A stretch of DNA of 35,629 bases from the NCBI GenBank assembly GCA_947624365.1, contig CANQJY010000003.1, positions 1-35,629 of the forward strand, written 5' to 3'. The notes beneath the pieces are model-generated. The model saw only the letters and a program-made list of their open reading frames with translations, did not search any database and was not told where the DNA came from. This document shows, piece by piece, positions 223-32,639 of the stretch. The position numbers were made by a program, and so were the translations under genes. How positions within the stretch are numbered: position 1 is the stretch's first letter; the number at the start of each line of letters is the position of its first letter. This DNA is from an uncultured Clostridia bacterium (GTDB lineage: Bacteria; Bacillota; Clostridia; TANB77; CAG-508).

Positions 223-271
223 TTTCGGGTTCCTATTTTAGGACACCCTCTTTATTGCTTTTTTAAACTCT

Positions 272-320
272 GTCCCAAAGTGGACACAATGTCCAAAAAA
301 GGACCGTCCCAAAATGGACA
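272..320. repeat. Palindromic REP/MITE-like element, truncated copy 1
   Basis: GTCCCAAAGTGGACACAATGTCCAAAAAAGGACCGTCCCAAAATGGACA: right arm plus a partial second right arm, ending immediately at the rpoC stop codon. Confidence 0.9.
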
Positions 321-3300
321 TTATTCTGTTAGTTCTGTACTGATGCGGATGTCTTGGTATTTTTTCATTCCTGTTCCTGCTGGAATTAGTTTTCCTATTA
401 TTACGTTTTCTTTTAGTCCGATTAGGTCGTCTGTTTTTCCTTTGACTGCTGCTTCTGTTAGGACTCTTGTTGTTTCTTGGAATGATGCTGCTGATAGGAA
501 ACTGTCTGTTGCTAGTGAGGCTTTTGTTATTCCTAGTAAGACTCTCTTTCCTGTTGCTGGTTTCTTTCCTTCTGCTATTGCTTGTTTGTTTCTGTCTTCA
601 AATTCGTACATGTCAATTAGTGATCCTGCAAACATGTCTGTTTCTCCATTGTCTTCTATTCTTACCTTTTTTAGCATTTGCCTTCCTATTACTTCTATGT
701 GCTTGTCATTGATGTCAACACCTTGGTTTCTGTACACTTTTTGTACTTCTGATATTAAGTATTCATACACTCCTTCTGGTCCTTTAATTGCTAAAATTTC
801 AGCTGGGTTGATTGAACCTTCTATTAATGGTTGTGCCACTTCTACCATGTCTCCGTCACTTACTTTCATTTTTGAACCAAATGGGATTGTATATGTTCTA
901 GAGTCATCTTTTGATGTTACAATGACTTCTTTCTTTTTCTTTGTTTCTTTGATTTTTACTTTACCTGCAATTTCTGTGATAATTGCTAGTCCTTTTGGTT
1001 TTCTTGCTTCAAATAGTTCTTCAACTCTTGGTAAACCTTGTGTAATATCTGCTACACCTGCAACACCTCCTGAGTGAATAGTTCTCATTGTTAATTGTGT
1101 TCCTGGTTCTCCAATAGATTGGGCTGCAATTATACCAATAGATTCTCCTATAGATACTAAATCTCTTCTTGCTAAGCCCATTCCATAACATTTTTGGCAT
1201 ACACCATGTTTTGAATGGCATCCTAGTACAGAACGTACTTCTACTCTTTCAATTCCTGCTTCTACAATTTTTTCTGCGATTGGTTCTGTAATCATTGTGT
1301 TTGTGTCTACAATTAGTTCTTTTGTTTCTGGATTTATAATATCATGTAATGCAAATCTACCAATTAGTCTTTCTTGTAATTTTTCAATAATTTGATTTCC
1401 ATCCTTGATGTCATATATTATAATTCCTTCTTCTGTTCCACAATCTTCATCTCTTACAATGATATCTTGTGATACATCAACTAATCTTCTTGTTAAATAT
1501 CCTGAGTCTGCTGTTCTTAGAGCTGTATCTGAAAGTCCTTTTCTTGCTCCATGGGCTGATATAAAGTATTCTAAGGCGTCTAATCCATCTGCAAATGATG
1601 ATTTGATTGGTATTTCAACTGCTTTACCTGTTGTACTTGCCATTAATCCTCTCATACCTGCAATCTGGCGTAATTGGTTCATATTTCCACGGGCTCCAGA
1701 TTTTACCATCATGTAAATTGGATTCAAATTATCAAAGTTATCTTCCATAGCTTTACTTACATCATTTGTTGCTTGTTCCCAAACTTTTATAACAGCATTA
1801 TATCTTTCATCTTCTGTTATTAAACCTCTTGCATATTGCTTACGAATAGTTTCTACTTGTTTATCTGCATCCTCTAATATTCCTTTTTTTGCAGATGGTA
1901 CTTCTACATCACTCATAGAGAATGTAATACCTGCTAATGTTGAATATTTAAATCCTAATGCTTTTATATAATCAATTACTTCTGCTGATTCGGTTAAGCC
2001 ATGTAGTCTGATAACTCTTTCTATTATTGTTCCCATTGTCTTTTTTACAACTGGGAAATTAATTTCATATTGGAATGGATCTTCTTCCCTGTTTATAAAT
2101 CCTAAGTCTTGTGGAATTCCTTGGTTGAAAATAATTCTTCCAACACTTGTTTCAATTTTTTTGTGTTGAATTTCTCCGTTAATTTCCTTTTCAATTCTTA
2201 CAAAAATCTTTGCGTGAATTCCAACATCATTGTTTTCAAATGCCATAATTGCTTCATCTGGGTCACGATAATATGAGCCTTCCCCTTTTTCACCATCTAT
2301 AATCATTGTTAAATAATAACTTCCTAAAATCATATCAAGTCTTGGTACTGCTACTGGTTTTCCGTCTTGTGGTTTTAATAAGTTATTTGTTGATAACATT
2401 AAATATCTTGCCTCTGCTTGTGCTTCTGGTGATAGTGGTAAATGGATTGCCATTTGATCACCGTCAAAGTCTGCATTAAATGCTTCACATACAAGTGGGT
2501 GAAGTTTTATTGCTCTACCTTCTACTAATACTGGTTCAAATGCTTGAATTCCAAGTCTGTGTAGTGTTGGTGCACGGTTTAGCATAACTGGATGATCTTT
2601 TATAACTTCTTCTAGAATTCCCCATACTTCTGGATTTAATCTTTCTACCATTCTTTTTGCATTTTTTATATTTTGTGCAAGATTTCTTCCTACTAATTCT
2701 TTCATAACAAATGGTTTGAATAATTCAATTGCCATTTCTTTTGGAAGTCCACATTGATAAATTTTTAGTTCTGGTCCTACAACTATAACAGAACGTCCAG
2801 AATAATCAACACGTTTTCCTAATAAGTTTTGACGGAAACGTCCTTGTTTTCCTTTTAACATATCTGATAAAGATTTTAATGCTCTGTTTCCTGCTCCTGT
2901 TACTGGTCTTCCACGTCTACCATTATCTATTAATGCATCTACTGATTCTTGTAACATACGCTTTTCATTACGTACAATTATTTCTGGAGCTCCTAATTCT
3001 AATAATCTTTTTAGTCTGTTATTTCTGTTTATAACTCTACGGTATAAGTCATTTAAGTCAGATGTTGCAAAACGACCTCCGTCTAATTGTACCATTGGTC
3101 TTAATTCTGGTGGAATAACAGGAATAACTCCCATAACCATCCATTCTGGACGGTTACCAGAAATCCTAAAAGATTCTACTGTATCTAATCTTTTTATTAA
3201 TTTAGATTTCTTTTGCTCACTTGCTTTTTCAATTTCTTTTTTTATTGAAGCTGATAGTTTGTTTATATCAATTTCTGCCAACAATGTTCTAATTGCTTCT

Positions 3301-3818
3301 GCACCCATTTGTGCTTTAAAACTATCTTTTCCATATTTTTCTTGTGCTTCATGATATTCTTTTTCATTTAGCACTTGACATTTTTCTAGACCAGATGTTC
3401 CTTTGTCTACAACTATATATGATGCAAAATATATAACTTTTTCTAAGTTTCTTGGTGAAACATCTAACATTGTTGCAATTCTACTTGGAATTCCTTTAAA
3501 ATACCAGATATGTGCAACTGGGGCTGCTAATTCAATATGCCCCATTCTTTCACGTCTTACTTTTGATTTTGTTACCTCTACTCCACATCTGTCACAGACA
3601 ATTCCTTTATATCTTACTCTTTTATATTTTCCACAATGACATTCCCAGTCTTTTGTTGGTCCAAATATTCTTTCACAAAATAGACCATCTTTTTCTGGTT
3701 TTAACGTTCTGTAGTTTATGGTTTCTGGTTTTTTTACTTCTCCTTTTGACCATTCTCTTATTTGTTCATCTGATGCAATTCCTATTTTTAATTTGTTAAA
3801 AATCTCTAATTCGTCCAC
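321..3818 (-). CDS. rpoC: DNA-directed RNA polymerase subunit beta'
   Basis: 1165 aa ORF with recognisable RpoC motifs, including [23 protein letters not shown] zinc site and NADFDGDQM catalytic motif; lies directly after rpoB. Confidence 0.99.
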
Positions 3819-7899: not shown

Positions 7900-8400
7900 A
7901 TGGCTAATTTACCGATTTTGATTAAATATTTATTGACAGCTTTTATAGGTATGATACCTATTGTTGAATTAAGGGGTGCAATTCCAATAGGTGTTTTTAC
8001 ATTCCACTTAAACTATTTAGAATCTTTTGTTTGTAGTTTTATAGGAAATATTATTCCTGTATATTTTATTGTTAAGTATATTAGACCTTTGTTTGATTTT
8101 TTTGGAAGGTGGAAACCTTTTAAAATTGTTATTGATTGGGCTTCTAATAAAGCTACAAAAAATATTGAAAATAACCCAAGATTGCAAAACTTTGCAGCAC
8201 TTGGATTATTCTTGTTTGTTGCTATTCCATTACCTGGTACAGGTGCTTGGGTTGGTTCTTTAATTGCTAATTTTCTAGATTTACCTCCTAAAAAAGCTAT
8301 CCCTCCAATTATTGTTGGGGTTCTTACTGCTGGTATTATTATTTTGATTTTGACAGCTGTTGCAAATGGTGGTATACAATACCTATTGCAAAGAATATAG
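7900..8400 (+). CDS. Small multidrug export family membrane protein (COG2426-like)
   Basis: 166 aa membrane protein with IPIVELRGAIPIG and PLPGTGAWVGSLIA motifs typical of the family. Confidence 0.85.
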   Translation: MANLPILIKYLLTAFIGMIPIVELRGAIPIGVFTFHLNYLESFVCSFIGNIIPVYFIVKYIRPLFDFFGRWKPFKIVIDWASNKATKNIENNPRLQNFAALGLFLFVAIPLPGTGAWVGSLIANFLDLPPKKAIPPIIVGVLTAGIIILILTAVANGGIQYLLQRI

Positions 8401-8497
8401 TGTCCATTTGGGGACGGTCCTTTTTTGGACATTTTGAAACAAATGTCCAAAAAAGGACCGTCCCCAAATGGACAAAAGGACCGTCCCCAAATGGACA
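8401..8497. repeat. Palindromic REP/MITE-like element, copy 2 with duplicated right arm
   Basis: TGTCCATTTGGGGACGGTCCTTTTTTGGACATTTTGAAACAAATGTCCAAAAAAGGACCGTCCCCAAATGGACA (8401-8474), then AAAGGACCGTCCCCAAATGGACA again. Confidence 0.96.
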
Positions 8498-8499
8498 TT

Positions 8500-9633
8500 C
8501 TATCGTTCTTTGACAAAGTCTTCCATTATTAATTTTATTACTGCTGCTACTGGTACTGCTAGAAACATACCCATAATTCCAAAATATGCTCCTCCTACTG
8601 TTACTGAGAAAATTACTAGTAGTGGGCTTATTTTTAATGAGTTTCCTATGATTTTTGGGTTTATTATGTTTGCATCTATTTGTTGTAATATGATTACAAC
8701 AATTGCCATAAGTATTGCTTGCCCAATTCCTCCTGTTATTAATGTTATAATTACTGCTATTATAACTGCTATAATTGCTCCAATATATGGAATGATGTTG
8801 AATAATCCTATCATAAATCCTAATAATGGTGCATATTTTACCCCTATTATACTCATTGCAATTGTAGTTAATATTCCGACTATCATTGCATCTAACACTT
8901 GGCTACTAACAAATTTGAAAAATAATTCATTTGCTTGTCCAAAATAATTATCTAAATGTTGGTATGTTTCTTCTTTTAGTATTCTTTTTGCTAACTTTTT
9001 TAAGAATCCAATTATTGATTCTCTTTCTAATAAAATATATACAGATACAACAATTGATACAAATATATCAAATATTGCTGAAAATACATTAAATAAATTT
9101 TGTACATATTCTAGTATTCTTTCATTGTTTAAGCTTAATAATTCTGTTATATTAATTTGTTGAATTCTTTCTACTATACTCATCGCAATATCGCTTTTTA
9201 AAATAGAATCTTCTGGTAAATCTGTAATTGCTTGAACAGCATTTTCATAGTATATTTGAATATTTCCGACTAATTCTATTATGCTATCTCTTAATACTGG
9301 GAATATAACATTTATTATAATCATTAATATTAAAGCTACAACAACAAATGTTGTTAATACACTAAGACCTCTTGCTCGTTTAGTAATAAATTTGCTTTTA
9401 CTTTTTTTGAATGCTTTTTCAATTGATCTTGCTGGCATTATTAGGATATATGCTATAAATATACCTACAAAAAATGGCCTTAATACGCGGAAAAATGTGC
9501 CAAACCATTCTTGTATATTTCCGAAATTATCAAATATTTTATATACAATAATAGCACTCACAATTAATAAAAACCATGATAGCCACTTTTTCCAATTACT
9601 TCTGATTTCTTCCATAAATATTTTCCTTCCCAT
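8500..9633 (-). CDS. AI-2E family transporter (PerM-like permease)
   Basis: 377 aa multi-TM protein; C-terminal region GLFNIIPYIGAIIAVIIAVIITL matches the AI-2E_transport family. Confidence 0.9.
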   Translation of the reverse strand: MGRKIFMEEIRSNWKKWLSWFLLIVSAIIVYKIFDNFGNIQEWFGTFFRVLRPFFVGIFIAYILIMPARSIEKAFKKSKSKFITKRARGLSVLTTFVVVALILMIIINVIFPVLRDSIIELVGNIQIYYENAVQAITDLPEDSILKSDIAMSIVERIQQINITELLSLNNERILEYVQNLFNVFSAIFDIFVSIVVSVYILLERESIIGFLKKLAKRILKEETYQHLDNYFGQANELFFKFVSSQVLDAMIVGILTTIAMSIIGVKYAPLLGFMIGLFNIIPYIGAIIAVIIAVIITLITGGIGQAILMAIVVIILQQIDANIINPKIIGNSLKISPLLVIFSVTVGGAYFGIMGMFLAVPVAAVIKLIMEDFVKER

Positions 9634-12848: not shown

Positions 12849-12926
12849 TGTCCACTTTGGGACGGTCCTTTTTTGGACATTTGTGAAAATGTCCAAAAAA
12901 GGACCGTCCCAAAGTGGACATGGACA
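12849..12926. repeat. Palindromic REP/MITE-like element, copy 3
   Basis: TGTCCACTTTGGGACGGTCCTTTTTTGGACAT..ATGTCCAAAAAAGGACCGTCCCAAAGTGGACA (12849-12920) plus a TGGACA extension up to the WG-gene stop. Confidence 0.95.
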
Positions 12927-17073: not shown

Positions 17074-20000
17074 CTATTTAGTTAATTTTTTTCTTATGAA
17101 ATATACTCCTCCTGCAATTGCTACAAGTGCTGTTATTGCTACTCCAATGTATGGAATGTAATTTCTGTTACCACCTGTACTAGCTACAACTAAGACAGAT
17201 TCTGCCATACTACTATCTGGTTCATCTGCATTTTTAGCTTCTAAATCTGTTGTTTCTCCAGATGATGTGGTAGTTCTTTGAACTGAAGGTACATAGTTTC
17301 CACATGTAATATATTTACCATCTTCTGGATTTATTAATGGCATTCCTTTAACTTGCATTTCATTGTTGCTTTCATCTGTTTTTTCAACTTGTACAATTTC
17401 TACTTGGTTAACTACATTTGTATCAGATTGATCTTTTGCAGATGTCATACGTCTTTCTACTTCCATTTGAAGAGTTGTATTATCTCCTGGTGCTATTTTT
17501 TCGTTACCCAATTTTTCTGTTTTATATACAGATGTTTGTTTGATGTTCTTTGATTTAAGGACATCATCCATTACAATATCTTTTAAGCTATTTAAATCTG
17601 TTACTATAGTCCATCCATTATTTTCATTAGCTTCACTAGTTATTGCATAATTGGTTTGTTTATCTAAATAATCTACTATATTTGTAGGTGATATTTTAAT
17701 TACGTTTTCATCAAATAACTGTGATGCTGTTGTACCATATCTATAGAATTCAACTGTACTATAATCTTTTTCACTGTTGTTTGTAACTGTGAAATTGTAT
17801 GTTACTTCTAGCCTTACGTTTTGTAGCAATTCATCATCTAATTCTGATTTGATTTCAGTATTTCTACGTTGTGTCTGATCATCATTACCAATATAGGTTG
17901 TGTATGGTGCATCTTTTATAGCTGTACTTATACTAGGATCTGTTGGTCTTTTTTGTGCATTGATTATTTCCTCTTCTGATGATTTGCTTATTTTAAGTTT
18001 GCTTACACGTTTGTCTATCTCTATTGCTTGTATTGGTCTCTTAATTATTCCTAAGTTAATACCATCAACATCAAATTTTAATTGCCCATTCTTATGATTA
18101 GCATTTTTTATTTCTGAAGGGTCAATTTCTACTCCAAATACTAGAATTGGTGTATATGAATCCATAGTTTTTGGTATAGTATCTGGTATTATGTTATTTC
18201 CATTTGATATTGCATCATCAATCTTTTCCCTAATATATTCATTATCTACTGCATGTGTTAAATTTTTAGCCCTATTTTCATCTCTATAAAATGTTGGGTT
18301 TCTTGACTCATACTCATATCTATCTCTTGCAAAGATTGTTGATTTGTATGCTACAACTGAATATTTGTCATCTCCCCAAGTAAATTTAATACGATATTTA
18401 CCTGGTGTAAAGCCTTCTAGACTATATGTTCCATTTCCACTTGTTGTACTTACTATGTCTTTATTATTTTCATAATCTTTTGCTGTTTCGTAGTCACCTC
18501 ATTGATTTTCTTCTTCTAATGTTACTTTCACATTATTTATTATATCTTCACTTGCATCATATGCTCCATTACCTTGACGTATCTTTTCGTCATCTAATAA
18601 TTCTTGGATTGCTTCATCTTCAAATACATAACCACTAATTTGTCTTGCATCTTTTATCTGAAGTTTTACTGCTGGTGCTCTTCTTGTATCATCTTCATCA
18701 TCTAATGGATCTCCTGCAAGATCTACATTATCTAGAACTGCATCTTGGTCAACTGCCGCTGTAAGCAATTTTGTTCCTGTTCGTTCTCCTGTATTCTCAT
18801 TTATTTCATATTCATATGATGTGTAAGATGTGATTTCGGCTATACTTTCAAATTTATATTCATCTGCTATGTCATTTATTATTTCTGCAATTGCATCTCT
18901 TGATAATCTAAATTGAATGTATATAGATTTGATACCTAGGTTCTCTAATAACATTCCATCTCCTAGTGAGATATCAACAGCTTTATATTTTCCTCCAGCC
19001 ATTGTCCTTTCTTTATAGTTAGAAATTTCTGTACCTGCTTTTATATTACCGTTTTCATCAATCTCCGTTCCTATTTTTTCAATGCTATAGTTTCTATCAT
19101 AGTACTCTGCTATACTATTAATTCTTGAAGAAAGTATATTGCTTTGATTTTTTAGTCCTATTTTATATGTTAGTGTCATTGTTAATTCTTGATTTTTATT
19201 ACCTGTTTGATACATAGCATCTGCTTTGTATACTGGTTGTGCATAATCGTCATATTTTACACCAACATTCCATACTAGATCTTCATCGTTTTTAAAATCT
19301 TCTCCATTTAATAATGAACCATGTTTGTATACGTAATTATATCCTTTGATGCTTACCGTTGTACTTCTTAAGTCTTGAGCTACAGCTACATCAGCTTGTG
19401 GTCTTCTGTATAATCCTAAATTGAATCCTGTCAATTCTGTAATAACCTCTGGAGCTTCAGCATAATCATATTCTATTGGGCATTCTGCTCTGTTAGTGTC
19501 TGATGTGATATAACGCTCTGAATTTTCTATAAATGTTTTTTTGCCTCTTTCAGAAGTAGGCTCATATTCCACTTCTACTGTATTATTTTTTCCTTCGTCT
19601 TGAGCTTGTACTTTTCTGTTGCCATCCCTTCCTACTACATATGCAAACATATCATTATATTTAGAACGCATGTCTCCTTCTTTTGCTTTTGAACCATAAT
19701 TTTCAAGTAAATTGCTATACCATTCGCTTTCTGCTTCTCCTCCAAATGGTATTTTTTCACCATTCTCTTTTGCTAGTTCTATTGTTCTTGTTTTTATCTC
19801 TTCAGTTCTATCTGAGTATGCACGATTGCCTGCTAATTCATTCCATGGAATAACATTTTGATAAGTTAATCCATCATATTCAAACTGAATTTTGTAATGT
19901 CCTAATTCTTTTATTTCTAGTTTGCTAAATTTATATTTACCGTCAGCCCCTGTTGTTGCTGTAAATGGTCCTCTATTCAAATTTCCAGCAACTTCACCAT

Positions 20001-22401
20001 TTTCATTATATATTGGTGTTGAGTAAGTTACCTCTTCTCCATTTTCATATAATAGTTTTACTGTTATTCCTTCCATTAATTTATCATGGTCTTTAGCATT
20101 TGTTTTATAATATACATTATTTCTTACACTTGTTTTTCCTTCTGCTACATCTTCCCATACAAATCCAGATAGGTCAATATATTTTTGCTCATTTTCTATT
20201 ACATGATGCATTATTTTTCCATCTTTTGTCTCTATCTCATTACCATTTTTATCTAATATTTGTTCATTTATAAAATTTTTAGTTTCAATTGCTAGTTCAT
20301 TATCATATGTCTTAGTTATACGTATTGGTGTGTTTGGATCAAATTCATAATATCCATTTGGATTTTCTACTTCATATATTTCGAACATCTTATGCTCATC
20401 GTTTATATCCAAATTATAAATTGTTAACTCACCATTATCGTTTGTATGGAATCTTGTTGCTTCGCTTCTATTTTTAGTGTATTCTGTTACAGCATCATCG
20501 TTTTGATTATATTCTTGTCCATCCTGTTTTATGTATTCATTTGTAAGTACACTTCTTAATATAAATCCTACATTTTTTAATTTAGTTTCATGATGATATT
20601 TATCTACTTTTACTATACTGAAATTTGCTCTTGCTCTTATATTTTCTGCAGTTACTTCTGTTGGTTTTTCTGTATTCGGTATAACCGTGGCTTCCCATGG
20701 GTCATCTGGAAGGTCGTAGTCTTTCATCCATGTATATTTATCAGTAGGTAGATATACTTCATATATTAGATATTTACCCTTTATTAAACCTTTAATTAAA
20801 CTCTCTGAATTTTCATCAGTGTAGAAAATTGTTGCTTTATTTTCATTTTGAATGTAATTGTATCCTTCTTCTCCTTCTGGTTTTGTTTGAACCCATCCAT
20901 TAAACGATTCATATTGTTCATCTGCTCTCTTTAATTTAAATCCTACTCCTTCAAATTCTATTTCCTTATTATATTTATCTTCCTTAATTATTTTTAGGTC
21001 TCCTATTTGCTTTTCATTTTCAACAGAAACTGTTATTTCTGCTCCGAGTGTTACACTAAATGTTTTTAATGGCTTATCTGGATTTTCAATTACATATCCA
21101 TATATTGGATTTTTTGTTTCATAAAACTCATATTCGCCAATTTTAAGATTCCCAATTTTTGTTGGAGTATTTGCATCACTCGTAAATACCGTTGCTTTAT
21201 CTTTATTGGAATCATACTTAATTGTACCATCTTCGTTCTTAATTACCCATCCCAATGTTTTATGTTTTAACTTAAACTCTACTCCACCTATCATTTTTTC
21301 AGTTTTTTTATCAATTTTTTTAATATTTACTGGAGGAGTAGGAATCTCTATTGAATCATCCATTTTTGCGGTTTGTTGGCCATTACCATCCCAAGCTTTA
21401 GCAATTAATAAACCTTGGTTTCCCTTGCCTTGCAAGAACCATAATTCAGCATTTATAATTGGTGTTGTGCTATCTGCTCCAGCTTCAAAATGTATTTGCA
21501 ATTTTTCAAAATCTCTGTCATATATTGCTTTCTTTGTTAAGTATATATAGAAACTTGCTCCTCCTTTCATATTTATATCTCCGAAATTTACAGTTGCAAA
21601 TTGATTATCTTTCCAAATTAATAATTTATATTCATCATTAATCGCAAATTCTTTGCCATTTTCATCTTTTAATGTAAAACTACTCATATTTCCACTACAT
21701 TGATATGCTAGTGGTCCAATTAATAATCCATCTTCATTTTTTTGTATTGTATTTTCTTCTTTTTTAATAAAAGTTTTATTAATTTCAGTAACTAATTTTG
21801 TAATACCAGTAGTAACAACATTATTAAGGCCAGAAGCATACGTACCAGCATCTGCGTCCAAAGAATCTGCATTTGTTGGTTCTCCTCCCCAATACTGATC
21901 CACAAAATAATCATTGGTTAACCCCATATCATCTAACCACGTGTTTTCATTCTTAAATTCATTTTTATATCTCCATAAATTAATTTGAGTCCCATTAGTA
22001 TGATGTGTATATTGATCAGAAGGATCATACATTAGATGCTTTTTTTCCGCTTGTTTTATATAATACGCAAATTTTGCATTAATATCAGCTTCAGTTTTAA
22101 AATTACCATTTATATCATAAGCATCTTTTCCTACTATTTTCATATATCCTTTTAAAGTATACGTATTGTCACCATCAGTATCAATATGTCCCGCCTTTTC
22201 CATACAATATACATTAGTAGAGTTTAAAAATCTTTCAGAACCCACATTTGTTAATGTTATGGTTGACCCAATTCCATATTTTCCATTCAATATCTCATTA
22301 ACTCTATCCATAGATGACGCTTTTGATACTGTAGGCATAAATGTACATATGGATATTATAAATCCAATTATTAATATAATATATTTTTTTATTTTACTCA
22401 T
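17074..22401 (-). pseudogene. Cna_B/SdrD-type surface adhesin, interrupted by one in-frame TGA at 18499-18501
   Basis: ORFs 17074..18165 and 18499..22431 share the same minus-strand frame; I translated 18166-18498 and found it open apart from the TGA. The SdrD-like B domain (ISGYVFEDE..NNVKVTLEEENQ*GDYETAKDYENNKDIVSTTSGNGTYSLEGFTPGKYRIKFTWGDDKY) spans the stop. Signal peptide after RBS AAAGGAGGG, start ATG 22401; C-terminal NYIPYIG + TM + RKK anchor. Confidence 0.85.
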
Positions 22402-22420
22402 TTTTTTCCCTCCTTTCTTC

Positions 22421-25400
22421 TTATATTCCATCTGATTTAATTAATTTTTTCGTTATAACAAGTGCTCCTACTCCAAGAATTGTTATTACTGCTACTACTA
22501 CTAATACTGTTGCAACTACTTCACCTGTTTTTATACTTATAATTAAGTCTGCTGATGCCATATCATCTTCACCTTTTGCTCTATTTCCTTCTGTTGAGTC
22601 TGCATCTTTTAATCCTTGTTCATTATAACTTTCTGCTATTTCTGCTACATTTGTTATAAGTCCTGTGTTATTTTCTGTCATTTGTTTTGTTAATGTTAAT
22701 ATTACTTCTTTACTCTCTCCTGGTGCCAATTTTGTATTCGCTAAACTATTATTATAGATATTTGATCCATCTTGATACCAGTCTTTATTTAGTTCTGAAC
22801 TGAACTTGTAATCTGCTGATACATAATCTTGTATTTTTCTAATATATCCTTCTGTTTCTCCTTCGTTTGTAACTCTAATTTTGTATTCAACTACAACATT
22901 TGAACTGCTTAATTGTTTTGCATGTATATCTATTTTTGCAAGTGTAGAATCTGGGAATTGTGTAGTTTCAGTTCCATTTGCATTTTGTACTATTACTCTT
23001 GTAATCATTTTTTCTAATTTCATATCATAAACTTTACGTTCTTTTAATCCTATATTTATATATGAAATATGCTCATCTTTTACTGGAATCTCTTCTGTTA
23101 CTGCTACTGTTTTTTGTACTCCATCAATTTCCATTTCTCTACTTATTACTTTAGAATTTCTCTCTGATGCTACTCCTTCTTTTTCGTATGTAGTTAATGC
23201 ATATTTAGCATTATCATATTCAAAAACTACCATAAAACTTCCTTGTGGTACTTCTGATAATGTATACATTCCATTTTCATTTGTTGTTGTTTTTATTTGT
23301 TCACCTTTTGCATTATTTTGGAATTGATTTGTTTGTGTATTAAATAATTTTACTGTTATTCCATTTAATAGTTTTTCATTACTATCTCTTTGTCCATTTT
23401 CATTTTCGTCTAACCATGCTGTACCAGATATTAATTTTGTTTGCTTAGTTTGCTCTCCACCTTGTTGCTCTCCACCTTGTTGTTCTCCTCCTTGTTGCTC
23501 TCCTCCTTGTTGCTCTCCTCCTTGTTGCTCTCCTCCTTGTTGCTCTCCACCTTGTTGTTCTCCTCCTTGTTGTTCTCCTCCTTGTTGCTCTCCTCCTTGT
23601 TGTTCTCCATCTGGTTCTTCAGAAGAAAAATCATTATTCCATTCAAATGGTTCAATAATATGAATTGTTTCAGCTTGTCCTAAATGAGTTGACTCAGCAT
23701 ATAAATCTGCTATATTTTTAATTTCAAGTGCTTTATTATTAGCTAGTGTAGGCTCTATTTGAGTAGTAACATAATAACTTTTTGTCTGGTTAGGATCTAC
23801 TGAATCTGTTATTGTTAATTTTGTTGTGTAATCTCTTGATGAATTACTAATCTCATACTTGCTACCTATTAGTTGATCTCCTTCAACCTCTATTGAACTA
23901 AATTCTTCTTGTGGAGATATTATATCTTGCAATCTAATATTTGCTACATTTTTTGTTCCTTTGTTTGTAACATCTATTTTATATGTTACTGTATCTCCTG
24001 CTTTTACATATTGGCTTTCATTTTGAGAAATATTTTCAATCTCTAAAAGAAATGCATTTATTGTAAATTGCTTTCTGTTTGCATAATATTTTTCACGATC
24101 AACTTCTGCTATTGGTTGTATTTGTCCTGTTTTTGTTTCTACATCTGTTATATTATCTATCTTAGCTGTTATAATTAACTTTACTTTTTCACTATTATTT
24201 AATTGTTTTATTGTATATGCATTGCTATCTTCAATACTTTCTAAATTTTCTAAATTAAAAATTTCTTTTATTGTTGCATTTTCTGCATTTAAAATTATTT
24301 TTACATTTTTTAAATCTTTATCAGATATATTTTTAACTGAAATTGTATACATACAAATAGTTTCTGCATTCATAACATCTTTTGCACTTGTACTTGATAT
24401 GATATCAATTTCAACATTGCCTGTTTCTATTTCAGTTTCAACTGTGTTAGATTCTTTTTTGGCCTCTCCATATTGTACTTCTATTTTATTAGATACTGTT
24501 ACTTTATCTGTTCCTTTTTGTACTTTTACCATATATGTTTTTGTTATCTCTTGTCCCGGTTCTAGTTTTATTCCTTCAAATATTACTTCTTTTTTATTTG
24601 TCTGCTCTTGTAAACAATCTTCTAATTCAGAAGTTTCTTCAGCTTCTACCCCTCCTAAGACGAATTCCTCAACATATACTGTTCCTTCTGGTACTTGCCC
24701 TATTAATTTAACATCGCTAACTTCTACAGAACCTGTATTTTTTGCTGTAATTGTATATTCGATTTTTTCGCCTTCTTTTGCTACTTGTCCATCTTTTGAA
24801 CCTACATTTGCTGTTAATGTTGTCGTTACTTCTGGTCCAACTCCTGTTTTTAGGCTTAATGTATTTGCTTCTACTGATTGTTTTTGTGTTTCATTTGTTA
24901 TATATGATACTTTATAATTTTCTGAAACTCCCATGTTGTATTCTAGATTTGCTGGTATGTTCATATTATATGCAAAATCTACTTCTTGTGATGGTTGTAA
25001 TTCATCCATAACTATTGCATATTTCTTTACTTTTGATGTATTTGCTATATTTTCTTCCCATTTATTTGATGCATTATTTATATCTTCTGTTGCATTTGCA
25101 TTTTCTGAATAATATATTTTTACTGCAGATTCATCTGTTCCTGAAACTTGTATGTTGCTTCCTTCTACTTCTATGTTATTTTCTTCCATAGCTTTTTCTG
25201 TTGGGAATGTTCCTAAAATCGTTACATCTTTCATTACTGTTTCATCGTTGTTTATTATTTGTGCAGATACTGTGGCTGTTTTTGCTCCTGTTGCTAATTC
25301 TAATTCTCCTGATTTATTTCCTTCATTATTAATTGTTTCTATTCCATATTGTTCTATTGCATTTGTTGTAATTAATCCTGCATATGATACTATTTTTGTA

Positions 25401-27415
25401 TTAACTACTTCTGTTCCTATATTTGCTCCTTCTGCATAGTGCATTGCTTTTTCGTTTGTATATTGCATTGTAAATGCTGTATCTGCATTTTTTTGTTTCT
25501 TATTTGTTGTTAAATTTGCTGTTATTAAAATTGTTGCACCATCAATTGCTATTCCTTTGTATTTTGTTTGTTCTCCTTGTAATTGTATTTCTATTACATT
25601 TCCTCTTTGCCCTACTGGTCCGATTACCATTTCATCTTCATTGATTAAATTTATTGATGTTACTTCTATATTTTCAAATTCTTGTGGTAATGTTAATGTA
25701 ATGTGTGGATTTTTGTATAATTCATATTTTTCATTATTGCTATGTAAAACTGCTCTAATCTCTACATTTTCGTTTGTGCGCATTGTAGAAAATTCTGTTT
25801 TACTTACACTTAAACTTGCATGTGTTTGTGTTTCTTGTAATTTTACTGTTGCTGTTGCATCTGATACTGTGTTTTCAATTTGTCCTAACATATATGATGT
25901 ATGTAATGCAAAATTTATTTCTGTTACATTTTGCATTGCTTGTCTGTTTTGTGCTGGTATTAACTTTGTTGTTTCTATTTTTAATATTCCTGCTTTTACT
26001 GGTTTTGTTGTCTCTACTGTGATTGCTCCAATTCCTACTGGCATTTCAATAGCAACATTTTGATTTTCATCTGCTCCTGTTGTTGCTGAAATTTGTGCTA
26101 TAATAGCTCCTGTTGCTTGATTTTTTATTGAAATATTTCCTTCTTCTCCTAATATGTCTTTTAAGTTGTTTAGATTTACTTTTATAGATTTTGTTTGGAT
26201 ATTTGATACATTTGTATTTGCATTGTTTTCTTGTATTTTAATTCCTTCTGCAACTCCTGCTAAATTTACTTGTATATCCATTTCTTGTTCTATTGTTCTT
26301 TCTATGCCTTCATATATTGTTCCTTTATATATTTCATTTTCGGTATTATTAAGAGAAACTTCAATAACACTATCTATCTCTTCTGATGATAATGTTGTTT
26401 TTCGATTAAATTTTGCAACTGTCTTGTTACTATCATATAATGATATTTCTGCATTTGCTACTATTGTCTGTTCTTCTATTGACTCTGTTCCTTCATATAC
26501 ATATGTAACAATATATTTGTCAGTTCCTGATTTTTCCCATACCACTTTTCCTTGTTGCTCTTCATTTTCAATAGTAATTGTTAGTTTTCCTGTTGTTTTG
26601 TCATATGTATAATTTCCTTCTTCTAATGTTTTTCCATTTGTTACTAATTGTTCAGGTGATTGTACAGAAACATTTATTGGGTATTTGCCTTGTAATGTCG
26701 GTGCCTGTAATTCTACTTTTTCAGTTTTAATTGGATATAGATTGTTTTCCATTCCTGCTTCTATTTGTAATTGAATTACTCTGTTTTGTGATGCTTCGTA
26801 TTGGAATACTTTATTTGTTAAAACTGATTGGTTTAGTACTATTCCTTTGTTTTCTTCATCATATGGACTTGTCATTTGCAATGTAACTGTTCTAGTTCCT
26901 GTTACTTTTGCTGTATCTGGTCTTTTGCCATATGTGTATGTACCTTCTAATTTTAGCTTGCTTTCCATGCTTAATAAAGATACATCAAAGTTTGTATCTG
27001 TTAAGAATTCAATTCCAACTGGTATTTCAACTGTTTCTCCTGCAGTAATTTGGTTTAATTCAATTGAATTTTCTGTAATGTTATTAATTCTCTCGTCTTC
27101 GCTATTTGTTTTGAATTTAAAATTACTGTTTTGTAAAGAAACTTTTCCATTGAAGTATCCTTCTTGTTTTACTGCAATTTGCAAATATAGCATTAGGTCT
27201 GTTGCATTTGCTTTTGCCCCATATTCTGATACTTGATTTTCTCCTTCCTTGAAATATGCCATAAATTCGATGTTTTTATGGCTTGTCGCTTTCTTTTGTG
27301 CTATCGCATCTACTGCATATGTTACTGCATTTGCGCCAACAAAAATAAAGTTGATGGCTGTTAGTGTGATAATAAGTGCAATAGATATCATGATTTTGCA
27401 TGTTTTGTTTCTCAT
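22421..27415 (-). CDS. Large DUF11-type repeat surface protein with SdrD-like domain and C-terminal TM
   Basis: 1664 aa; N-terminal signal/TM, repeated DUF11-like segments (GDTVTYKIDVTNKGTKNVANIRLQD), SdrD-like domain (ISGTAWLDENENGQRDSNEKLLNGITVKLFN), C-terminal TM plus KK. Confidence 0.88.
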   Translation of the reverse strand: MRNKTCKIMISIALIITLTAINFIFVGANAVTYAVDAIAQKKATSHKNIEFMAYFKEGENQVSEYGAKANATDLMLYLQIAVKQEGYFNGKVSLQNSNFKFKTNSEDERINNITENSIELNQITAGETVEIPVGIEFLTDTNFDVSLLSMESKLKLEGTYTYGKRPDTAKVTGTRTVTLQMTSPYDEENKGIVLNQSVLTNKVFQYEASQNRVIQLQIEAGMENNLYPIKTEKVELQAPTLQGKYPINVSVQSPEQLVTNGKTLEEGNYTYDKTTGKLTITIENEEQQGKVVWEKSGTDKYIVTYVYEGTESIEEQTIVANAEISLYDSNKTVAKFNRKTTLSSEEIDSVIEVSLNNTENEIYKGTIYEGIERTIEQEMDIQVNLAGVAEGIKIQENNANTNVSNIQTKSIKVNLNNLKDILGEEGNISIKNQATGAIIAQISATTGADENQNVAIEMPVGIGAITVETTKPVKAGILKIETTKLIPAQNRQAMQNVTEINFALHTSYMLGQIENTVSDATATVKLQETQTHASLSVSKTEFSTMRTNENVEIRAVLHSNNEKYELYKNPHITLTLPQEFENIEVTSINLINEDEMVIGPVGQRGNVIEIQLQGEQTKYKGIAIDGATILITANLTTNKKQKNADTAFTMQYTNEKAMHYAEGANIGTEVVNTKIVSYAGLITTNAIEQYGIETINNEGNKSGELELATGAKTATVSAQIINNDETVMKDVTILGTFPTEKAMEENNIEVEGSNIQVSGTDESAVKIYYSENANATEDINNASNKWEENIANTSKVKKYAIVMDELQPSQEVDFAYNMNIPANLEYNMGVSENYKVSYITNETQKQSVEANTLSLKTGVGPEVTTTLTANVGSKDGQVAKEGEKIEYTITAKNTGSVEVSDVKLIGQVPEGTVYVEEFVLGGVEAEETSELEDCLQEQTNKKEVIFEGIKLEPGQEITKTYMVKVQKGTDKVTVSNKIEVQYGEAKKESNTVETEIETGNVEIDIISSTSAKDVMNAETICMYTISVKNISDKDLKNVKIILNAENATIKEIFNLENLESIEDSNAYTIKQLNNSEKVKLIITAKIDNITDVETKTGQIQPIAEVDREKYYANRKQFTINAFLLEIENISQNESQYVKAGDTVTYKIDVTNKGTKNVANIRLQDIISPQEEFSSIEVEGDQLIGSKYEISNSSRDYTTKLTITDSVDPNQTKSYYVTTQIEPTLANNKALEIKNIADLYAESTHLGQAETIHIIEPFEWNNDFSSEEPDGEQQGGEQQGGEQQGGEQQGGEQQGGEQQGGEQQGGEQQGGEQQGGEQQGGEQTKQTKLISGTAWLDENENGQRDSNEKLLNGITVKLFNTQTNQFQNNAKGEQIKTTTNENGMYTLSEVPQGSFMVVFEYDNAKYALTTYEKEGVASERNSKVISREMEIDGVQKTVAVTEEIPVKDEHISYINIGLKERKVYDMKLEKMITRVIVQNANGTETTQFPDSTLAKIDIHAKQLSSSNVVVEYKIRVTNEGETEGYIRKIQDYVSADYKFSSELNKDWYQDGSNIYNNSLANTKLAPGESKEVILTLTKQMTENNTGLITNVAEIAESYNEQGLKDADSTEGNRAKGEDDMASADLIISIKTGEVVATVLVVVAVITILGVGALVITKKLIKSDGI
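23461..23610 (-). repeat. 15-bp in-frame tandem repeat, 10 units, encoding (GGEQQ)n linker
   Basis: Ten consecutive CTTGTTG[C/T]TCTCC[A/T][C/T]C-type 15-mers inside the DUF11 protein. Confidence 0.97.
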
Positions 27416-32548: not shown

Positions 32549-32639
32549 TGTCCATTTTGGGACGGTCCTTTTTTGGACATTTGTCTCAAATGTCCAAAAA
32601 AGGACCGTCCCAAAATGGACAAAACGGGCAAAATGGACA
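32549..32639. repeat. Palindromic REP/MITE-like element, copy 4
   Basis: TGTCCATTTTGGGACGGTCCTTTTTTGGACATTTGTCTCAAATGTCCAAAAAAGGACCGTCCCAAAATGGACA (32549-32621) followed by a degenerate duplicated end up to the mreB stop. Confidence 0.95.

Follow-up and report, generated by a model that had tools for sequence, protein, structure and literature searches.

Palindromic repeats of an uncultured Clostridia bacterium very probably form a REPIN population with its own RAYT

Most of the REPIN-RAYT systems known so far have GTAG-tagged hairpins and come from Proteobacteria. A REPIN, as a pair of inverted REP arms, can be regarded as a non-autonomous miniature mobile element. Among the RAYTs, subclass 2.1 is marked by a C-terminal HTH extension, and no REP-like sequences were identified near its genes in the account drawn on here (PMC6006769), which is also the source through which the RAYT group definitions are relayed. 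Related genes have been described as TIRYT, with GGGGWSAS inverted repeats, and in REPs of other phyla TAG stop codons are often supplied by the REP ends (PMC3733652). The palindromes of the Clostridia genome analysed in this work very probably constitute a REPIN population with its own RAYT, which is a known kind of system in a variant form. What is new is the conserved motif in the hairpin loop, and the occurrence of REPs beside a RAYT that looks to be of a class reported to be without them. The precise term for these elements is REPINs, or inverted REP doublets, of a subclass-2.1/TIRYT-type RAYT.

The window is the whole stretch of DNA that was analysed, 35,629 nt of contig CANQJY010000003.1, in which the first-pass annotation placed four palindromic sites of about 72 bp. 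The coordinates stand, and three sites (8401-8474, 12849-12920 and 32549-32621) are near-perfect palindromes of 72-74 nt, with arms of 34-35 bp and loops of 3-6 nt, that fold as RNA at -60.6 to -62.1 kcal/mol (z about -14 against shuffles). The fourth, at 271-320, is instead one REP arm (288-320) and a truncated remnant (271-286), with a modest RNA fold of -17.3 kcal/mol. The paired differences between the arms of different copies, TTTGGGG/CCCCAAA, CTTTGGG/CCCAAAG and TTTTGGG/CCCAAAA, were correctly described. Outside the palindromes, 8475-8497, 12921-12926 and 32622-32639 are extra arm copies, truncated or decayed, and at all four sites a stop codon is touched or nearly touched by the element. 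The features are as follows.

271-286, minus strand: truncated REP remnant (TGTCCCAAAGTGGACA)
288-320, minus strand: lone REP arm, immediately 3' of the rpoC stop codon (321)
321-3818, minus strand: rpoC, the TAA stop of which adjoins the element
7900-8400, plus strand: small multidrug-export family gene, with its TAG end at the element
8401-8474, no strand: REPIN of inverted REP arms 8401-8434 and 8441-8474, loop of 6 nt, in a convergent-gene spacer
8474-8497, minus strand: further truncated REP arm (AAAAGGACCGTCCCCAAATGGACA)
8500-9633, minus strand: convergent AI-2E family transporter gene, with 2 nt between the gene end and the repeat
12849-12920, no strand: REPIN of arms 12849-12882 and 12887-12920, loop of 4 nt, in the spacer of a WG-repeat gene and a holo-ACP synthase gene
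12921-12926, minus strand: truncated head TGGACA, immediately 3' of the WG-repeat gene stop codon
31704-32534, minus strand: mreC, the gene downstream of the interrupted spacer
32549-32621, no strand: REPIN in the mreB/mreC spacer, loop of 3 nt
32622-32639, minus strand: outer REPIN remnant, partly symmetric, immediately 3' of the mreB stop codon
32640-33674, minus strand: mreB, the TAA stop of which adjoins the element

An Rfam search of the window returned no match above gathering score. Away from the repeats, the window contains a 15-bp tandem repeat (23420-23644) within a 1664-aa reading frame (22421-27415, minus strand), which is adjoined by a 1310-aa SpaA-fold protein (18499-22431); both are large surface-protein-like genes.

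The genome to which the window belongs is a gut-type Clostridia assembly of 1.05 Mb in 116 contigs, 73.6% complete, in which the stretches around matches were read. A search with the 21-nt arm core GGGACGGTCCTTTTTTGGACA, allowing up to three mismatches, gave 89 matches (45 on the plus strand and 44 on the minus), against none for the reversed pattern in the same genome; hence the repeat is not a product of chance. These matches fall into 49 clusters, nearly all of them tail-to-tail doublets with central loops of a few to about 42 nt: about 40 of the 49 read plus-minus (tail to tail), and one reads plus-plus. The cluster on contig C82, a weak three-mismatch match, was dropped from later counts, leaving about 48 sites. 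Some copies (at L019, L025, L029, L030, L032 and L040) have a longer interior of around 40 nt, which is alike among some of these copies and to that of the copy adjacent to the RAYT gene, and the short-loop copies may be internal deletions of these longer forms. Among the papers listed as containing GGGACGGTTC, none, judged by title, has to do with bacterial repeats.

By simple gene calls, 30 of the element-bearing spacers are tandem, seven convergent and two divergent. The median distance from a flanking stop codon to the element is 6 nt, with 14 of 50 such stops directly adjoining it; 11 flanking stops lie at distance 0, where 3.8 would be expected under uniform placement. No fixed target sequence was found at 51 clean insertion boundaries, at which only stop-codon adjacency is in surplus: the boundary trinucleotides include TAG at 8 and TTG at 7 of the 51, with no conserved tetranucleotide and no tag. 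This adjacency matches that of the REPs reported in other phyla (PMC3733652).

The genome has one identified Y1_Tnp gene, on contig C84, encoding a 265-aa protein (Y1_Tnp profile E 4.5e-13). On the locus read around it (L009) the gene occupies 689-1486 and has the same repeat on both sides, at 472-502 and 1498-1600; the upstream repeat is a lone arm that immediately follows the stop codon of the preceding gene, and the downstream repeat is a full palindrome. The HUH motif and tyrosine (H61, H63 and Y120) are invariant in 28 sequences. The best NCBIfam family is REP_Tyr_transpos, at 67.5 bits, which is below the equivalog cut-off of 80, with IS200 at 18.3 bits. The sole PDB sequence match, and also the best fold match (E 2.6e-7), is 4er8, the structure of the E. 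coli RAYT in complex with a REP hairpin. C-terminal helices at 226-236, 244-251 and 255-263 are confident in the structure model, and HTH_23/HTH_28 match weakly in the RAYTs of some relatives only; from the modelled structure, the protein looks like a RAYT of subclass 2.1 or TIRYT type with a helical, HTH-like C-terminal tail. On its 3' side, radA (L009:1604-2560) is split into two frames around 2040-2061, by a frameshift that is either an assembly error or real. The first-pass suggestion of RAYT-linked REP/BIME elements is thereby supported, as regards the number of copies, with about 48 sites and 89 arm matches extending beyond the four in the window, their mostly intergenic positions adjoining stop codons, and the existence on another contig of a Y1/RAYT gene flanked by the same palindrome.

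The pairing of the arms was initially read as evidence of a maintained hairpin. Across the genome the covariation itself is strong: in 33 of 38 complete doublets the arms are identical over 31 nt, and in the other five they differ by one base, although arms vary between sites. The resulting five mismatches compare with a mean of 49.5 and a minimum of 34 when right arms were re-dealt among sites, and none of 10,000 such shuffles was as low. Maintenance is a separate matter. In 8 of the 38 doublets palindromic symmetry continues for 7-22 nt outside the conserved arms, as outer shells in which truncated heads, TGTCCATTTGGGGACG among them, have a mirror image on the opposite side. Since the symmetry extends outside the element, covariation alone is no proof of selection on the hairpin, and the shells suggest that fold-back copying from one arm to the other is among the causes of the covariation. 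The corresponding rival explanation, to which we give a little less than an even chance, is that arm identity arises wholly from fold-back template switching during replication, a process that would also make nested shells, without any selection on structure. However, the single arm also has an inner stem that covaries from species to species around an asymmetric conserved loop, a pattern that arm-to-arm copying does not produce, and template switching addresses the upkeep of symmetry rather than the identity of the element. For the REPINs themselves, within-site arm identity probably comes from transposition as a unit together with hairpin-templated copying. The nested shells are relevant to the question of how the two arms of a long palindrome stay identical.

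That inner stem emerged from core-aligned arms taken from RAYT flanks in the genus and in other Firmicutes, which form small hairpins with different stems and a similar loop. The stems include TGTCCA/TGGACA, which is that of the window lineage, TGTGAAA/TTTCACA, TGTCG/CGACA, TTGTCAA/TTGACAA, AAACAGG/CCTGTTT, AATAAGACA/TGTCTTATT and ATGCGACAG/TTGTCGCAT, whereas the loop core is conserved as GGGACG(G/T)T(T/C)C. Mean stem score was 12.3, against an average of 9.3 and a maximum of 10.1 in 200 partner-swapped sets; the pooled test takes in some spurious core matches, with the observed score still above all swapped sets. Hence it is the pairing of the stem that is kept, not its sequence, and the conserved part lies in the loop. 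When the 31-nt arm of the window is folded by itself as RNA, two small hairpins are favoured over one, so it is on the cross-species comparison that the reading as a single stem depends.

A RAYT homologue was found in 50 of 59 genomes of the genus, and a homologue search found a single copy in the window's own genome. The order of upstream gene, RAYT and radA is kept at most genus loci of the closer clade, in which identity to the genes of the window's genome is about 44-52% for RAYT, about 67-82% for radA and about 54-72% for the upstream gene. At these syntenic loci (L155-L176) the RAYT has diverged far more than its neighbours radA and the upstream gene. The RAYT-flanking repeats differ from species to species, and a cross-search of versions from four RAYT flank types against ten genomes gave a near-diagonal matrix. 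The version from G010 had 46 matches, in that genome only; that from G018 had 30 at home and 1 in G004; that from G026 had 87 at home and 1 in G025; and the version common to G007, G020, G025 and G058 had 88, 65, 71 and 83 matches respectively, with 0-4 elsewhere. The window version reached its 89 matches in its own genome only. The nearest relatives, G066 and G075 (MreC identity 89% and 84%), have neither a RAYT nor copies of the repeat; an exception to the pairing is G019, a 79% complete genome that has 22 diverged copies although no RAYT was matched in it. In several relatives (L203, L204, L205 and L126) the doublets are less perfect palindromes than those of the window: their arms are longer and end in ATGTAAAG, and their interiors are unique and a few tens of nt in length. 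In other phyla, RAYT homologues (L079, L088, L095 and L097) have another inverted repeat at their flanks, of type GGGGTCAGGTCTTGACATTTGACA.

The mreB-mreC spacer offers a comparison of occupied and empty sites. It carries the element here (32549-32639), directly after the TAA of mreB, and lacks the repeat in all 28 readable relatives, L231 having been left out because its mreB match was partial. Most relatives' spacers are 6 to about 30 nt, that of the nearest reading TAA followed by AAAGGAGAGTTGAGGATATG. Each species is represented by a single genome, and the closest empty spacer is from a species with 89% MreC identity; the spacers show apparent gain or loss of the element between species rather than within a strain.

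These observations also bear on whether the palindromes are functional RNA elements under selection, such as 3'-end mRNA stabilisers, terminators or translation regulators, the covariation then reflecting selection on RNA structure. Lying mostly a few nt from stop codons and seldom in divergent spacers, with very stable RNA folds and terminator-like matches within the arm, the elements have features such a role would predict, and known REPs are reported at 3' ends with roles in mRNA (PMC3733652). Nevertheless we consider this improbable, as the mreB-mreC copy has no counterpart in relatives and is therefore not a conserved regulatory site, the versions are genome-specific and track the RAYT, and copying of DNA accounts better for the outward symmetric shells. 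As for the terminator-like matches, their short stems lie within the arm and are in competition with the 34-bp hairpin. The terminator reading itself was rejected, these matches being short inner stems and one copy lying inside the mreB-mreC operon. A secondary effect of the elements on mRNA may exist.

Miniature size, terminal inverted repeats and variable interiors (loops of 3-6 nt in the window, and core starts 84-133 nt apart in several relatives) would also suit MITEs of a classical DDE transposon or other insertion sequence, the RAYT having merely received two chance insertions. This is very unlikely, because RAYT and repeat are found together in most of the related species, each time with a different version of the repeat, which chance insertions cannot explain. 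Although some contigs end at an element (C47 and C93) and this metagenome-assembled genome is 73.6% complete, an assembly artefact is refuted in practice by the roughly 45 sites inside contigs with distinct flanks and the analogous families in independent genus genomes.

It is the dispersal of the repeat, its flanking of the RAYT, the version-specific co-occurrence of RAYT and REP, and the occupied and empty spacers that lead to the REPIN-RAYT reading. The repeats are inverted doublets mostly abutting genes, with compensatory arm changes and a RAYT flanked by the same repeat; the protein has the HUH motif and catalytic tyrosine, is nearer to RAYT than to IS200 TnpA, and is encoded by a single, vertically inherited copy at a stable locus. 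The genome's single RAYT would almost certainly spread the REPINs in trans. By analogy with its family, the enzyme's most likely mode of action is to bind REP hairpins in the single-stranded DNA of the replication fork, to cut at the foot of each hairpin and to carry the doublet to new sites. The copies that persist would then be mostly those just 3' of stop codons, where they are presumably least harmful.

Beyond this genome, we lean slightly towards a broader proposal, that HTH-tailed RAYTs across Firmicutes, and perhaps beyond, each keep their own REPIN population. The REPs would be of a third type, with GGGGACG(G/T)T(T/C)C in the loop and a stem free to vary if pairing is kept, and the RAYT would remain at one locus, upstream of radA in the genus, changing together with its REP. 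If true, this extends REPINs to a class reported to lack REPs, and supplies dozens of matched pairs of enzyme and target. With many species having the RAYT at one syntenic locus and a REP version per species, the rule of RAYT-REP recognition could be read from such pairs.

Among known systems, the REP/BIME elements and TnpA-REP of E. coli (4er8) share with this one the HUH/Y1 fold and the preference for gene 3' ends. However, the hairpin of the E. coli REP bears a GTAG tag, whereas no unpaired terminal GTAG was found here, TAG before the arm being confined to the eight boundaries noted above, and the solved E. coli RAYT chain, of 165 aa, is without the C-terminal extension seen in this protein. 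CGTC-tagged REPs (PMC3733652) are likewise palindromic, often dimeric and characterised by a CGTC/GACG tetranucleotide. Theirs is a terminal unpaired CGTC on an 8-9 bp stem with no linked transposase, whereas here the loop contains GACG and the repeat stands on both sides of the RAYT gene.

The TIRtrons with TIRYT, or subclass 2.1 TnpA-REP (PMC3733652, PMC6006769), are alike in their long RAYT-type protein with a C-terminal extension, HTH-like there and apparently so here, in their moderately abundant dimeric repeats, and in flanking inverted repeats with a GGGGWSAS-like motif, which here is GGGGACAG in some relatives and GGGGACGG or GGGGACGT in others. Unlike subclass 2.1 as relayed in PMC6006769, for which no REP-like sequences are given, the repeats of this system are monomeric hairpins whose stems covary; they are dispersed in tens of copies and match the particular RAYT of their genome. 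Finally, the REPINs and RAYTs of Bertels and Rainey (2011, PMC3116915) have the same inverted REP doublets in intergenic positions, long hairpins with compensatory changes, one RAYT bordered by the same repeat, and singlets that are remnants. Those REPINs come from Pseudomonas and other mainly proteobacterial and cyanobacterial genomes, whereas these come from a Clostridia genome, in which the GTAG tag is absent, the RAYT has an apparently HTH-like C-terminal tail, and a conserved core in the loop is carried by near-perfect homodimers with nested outer shells.
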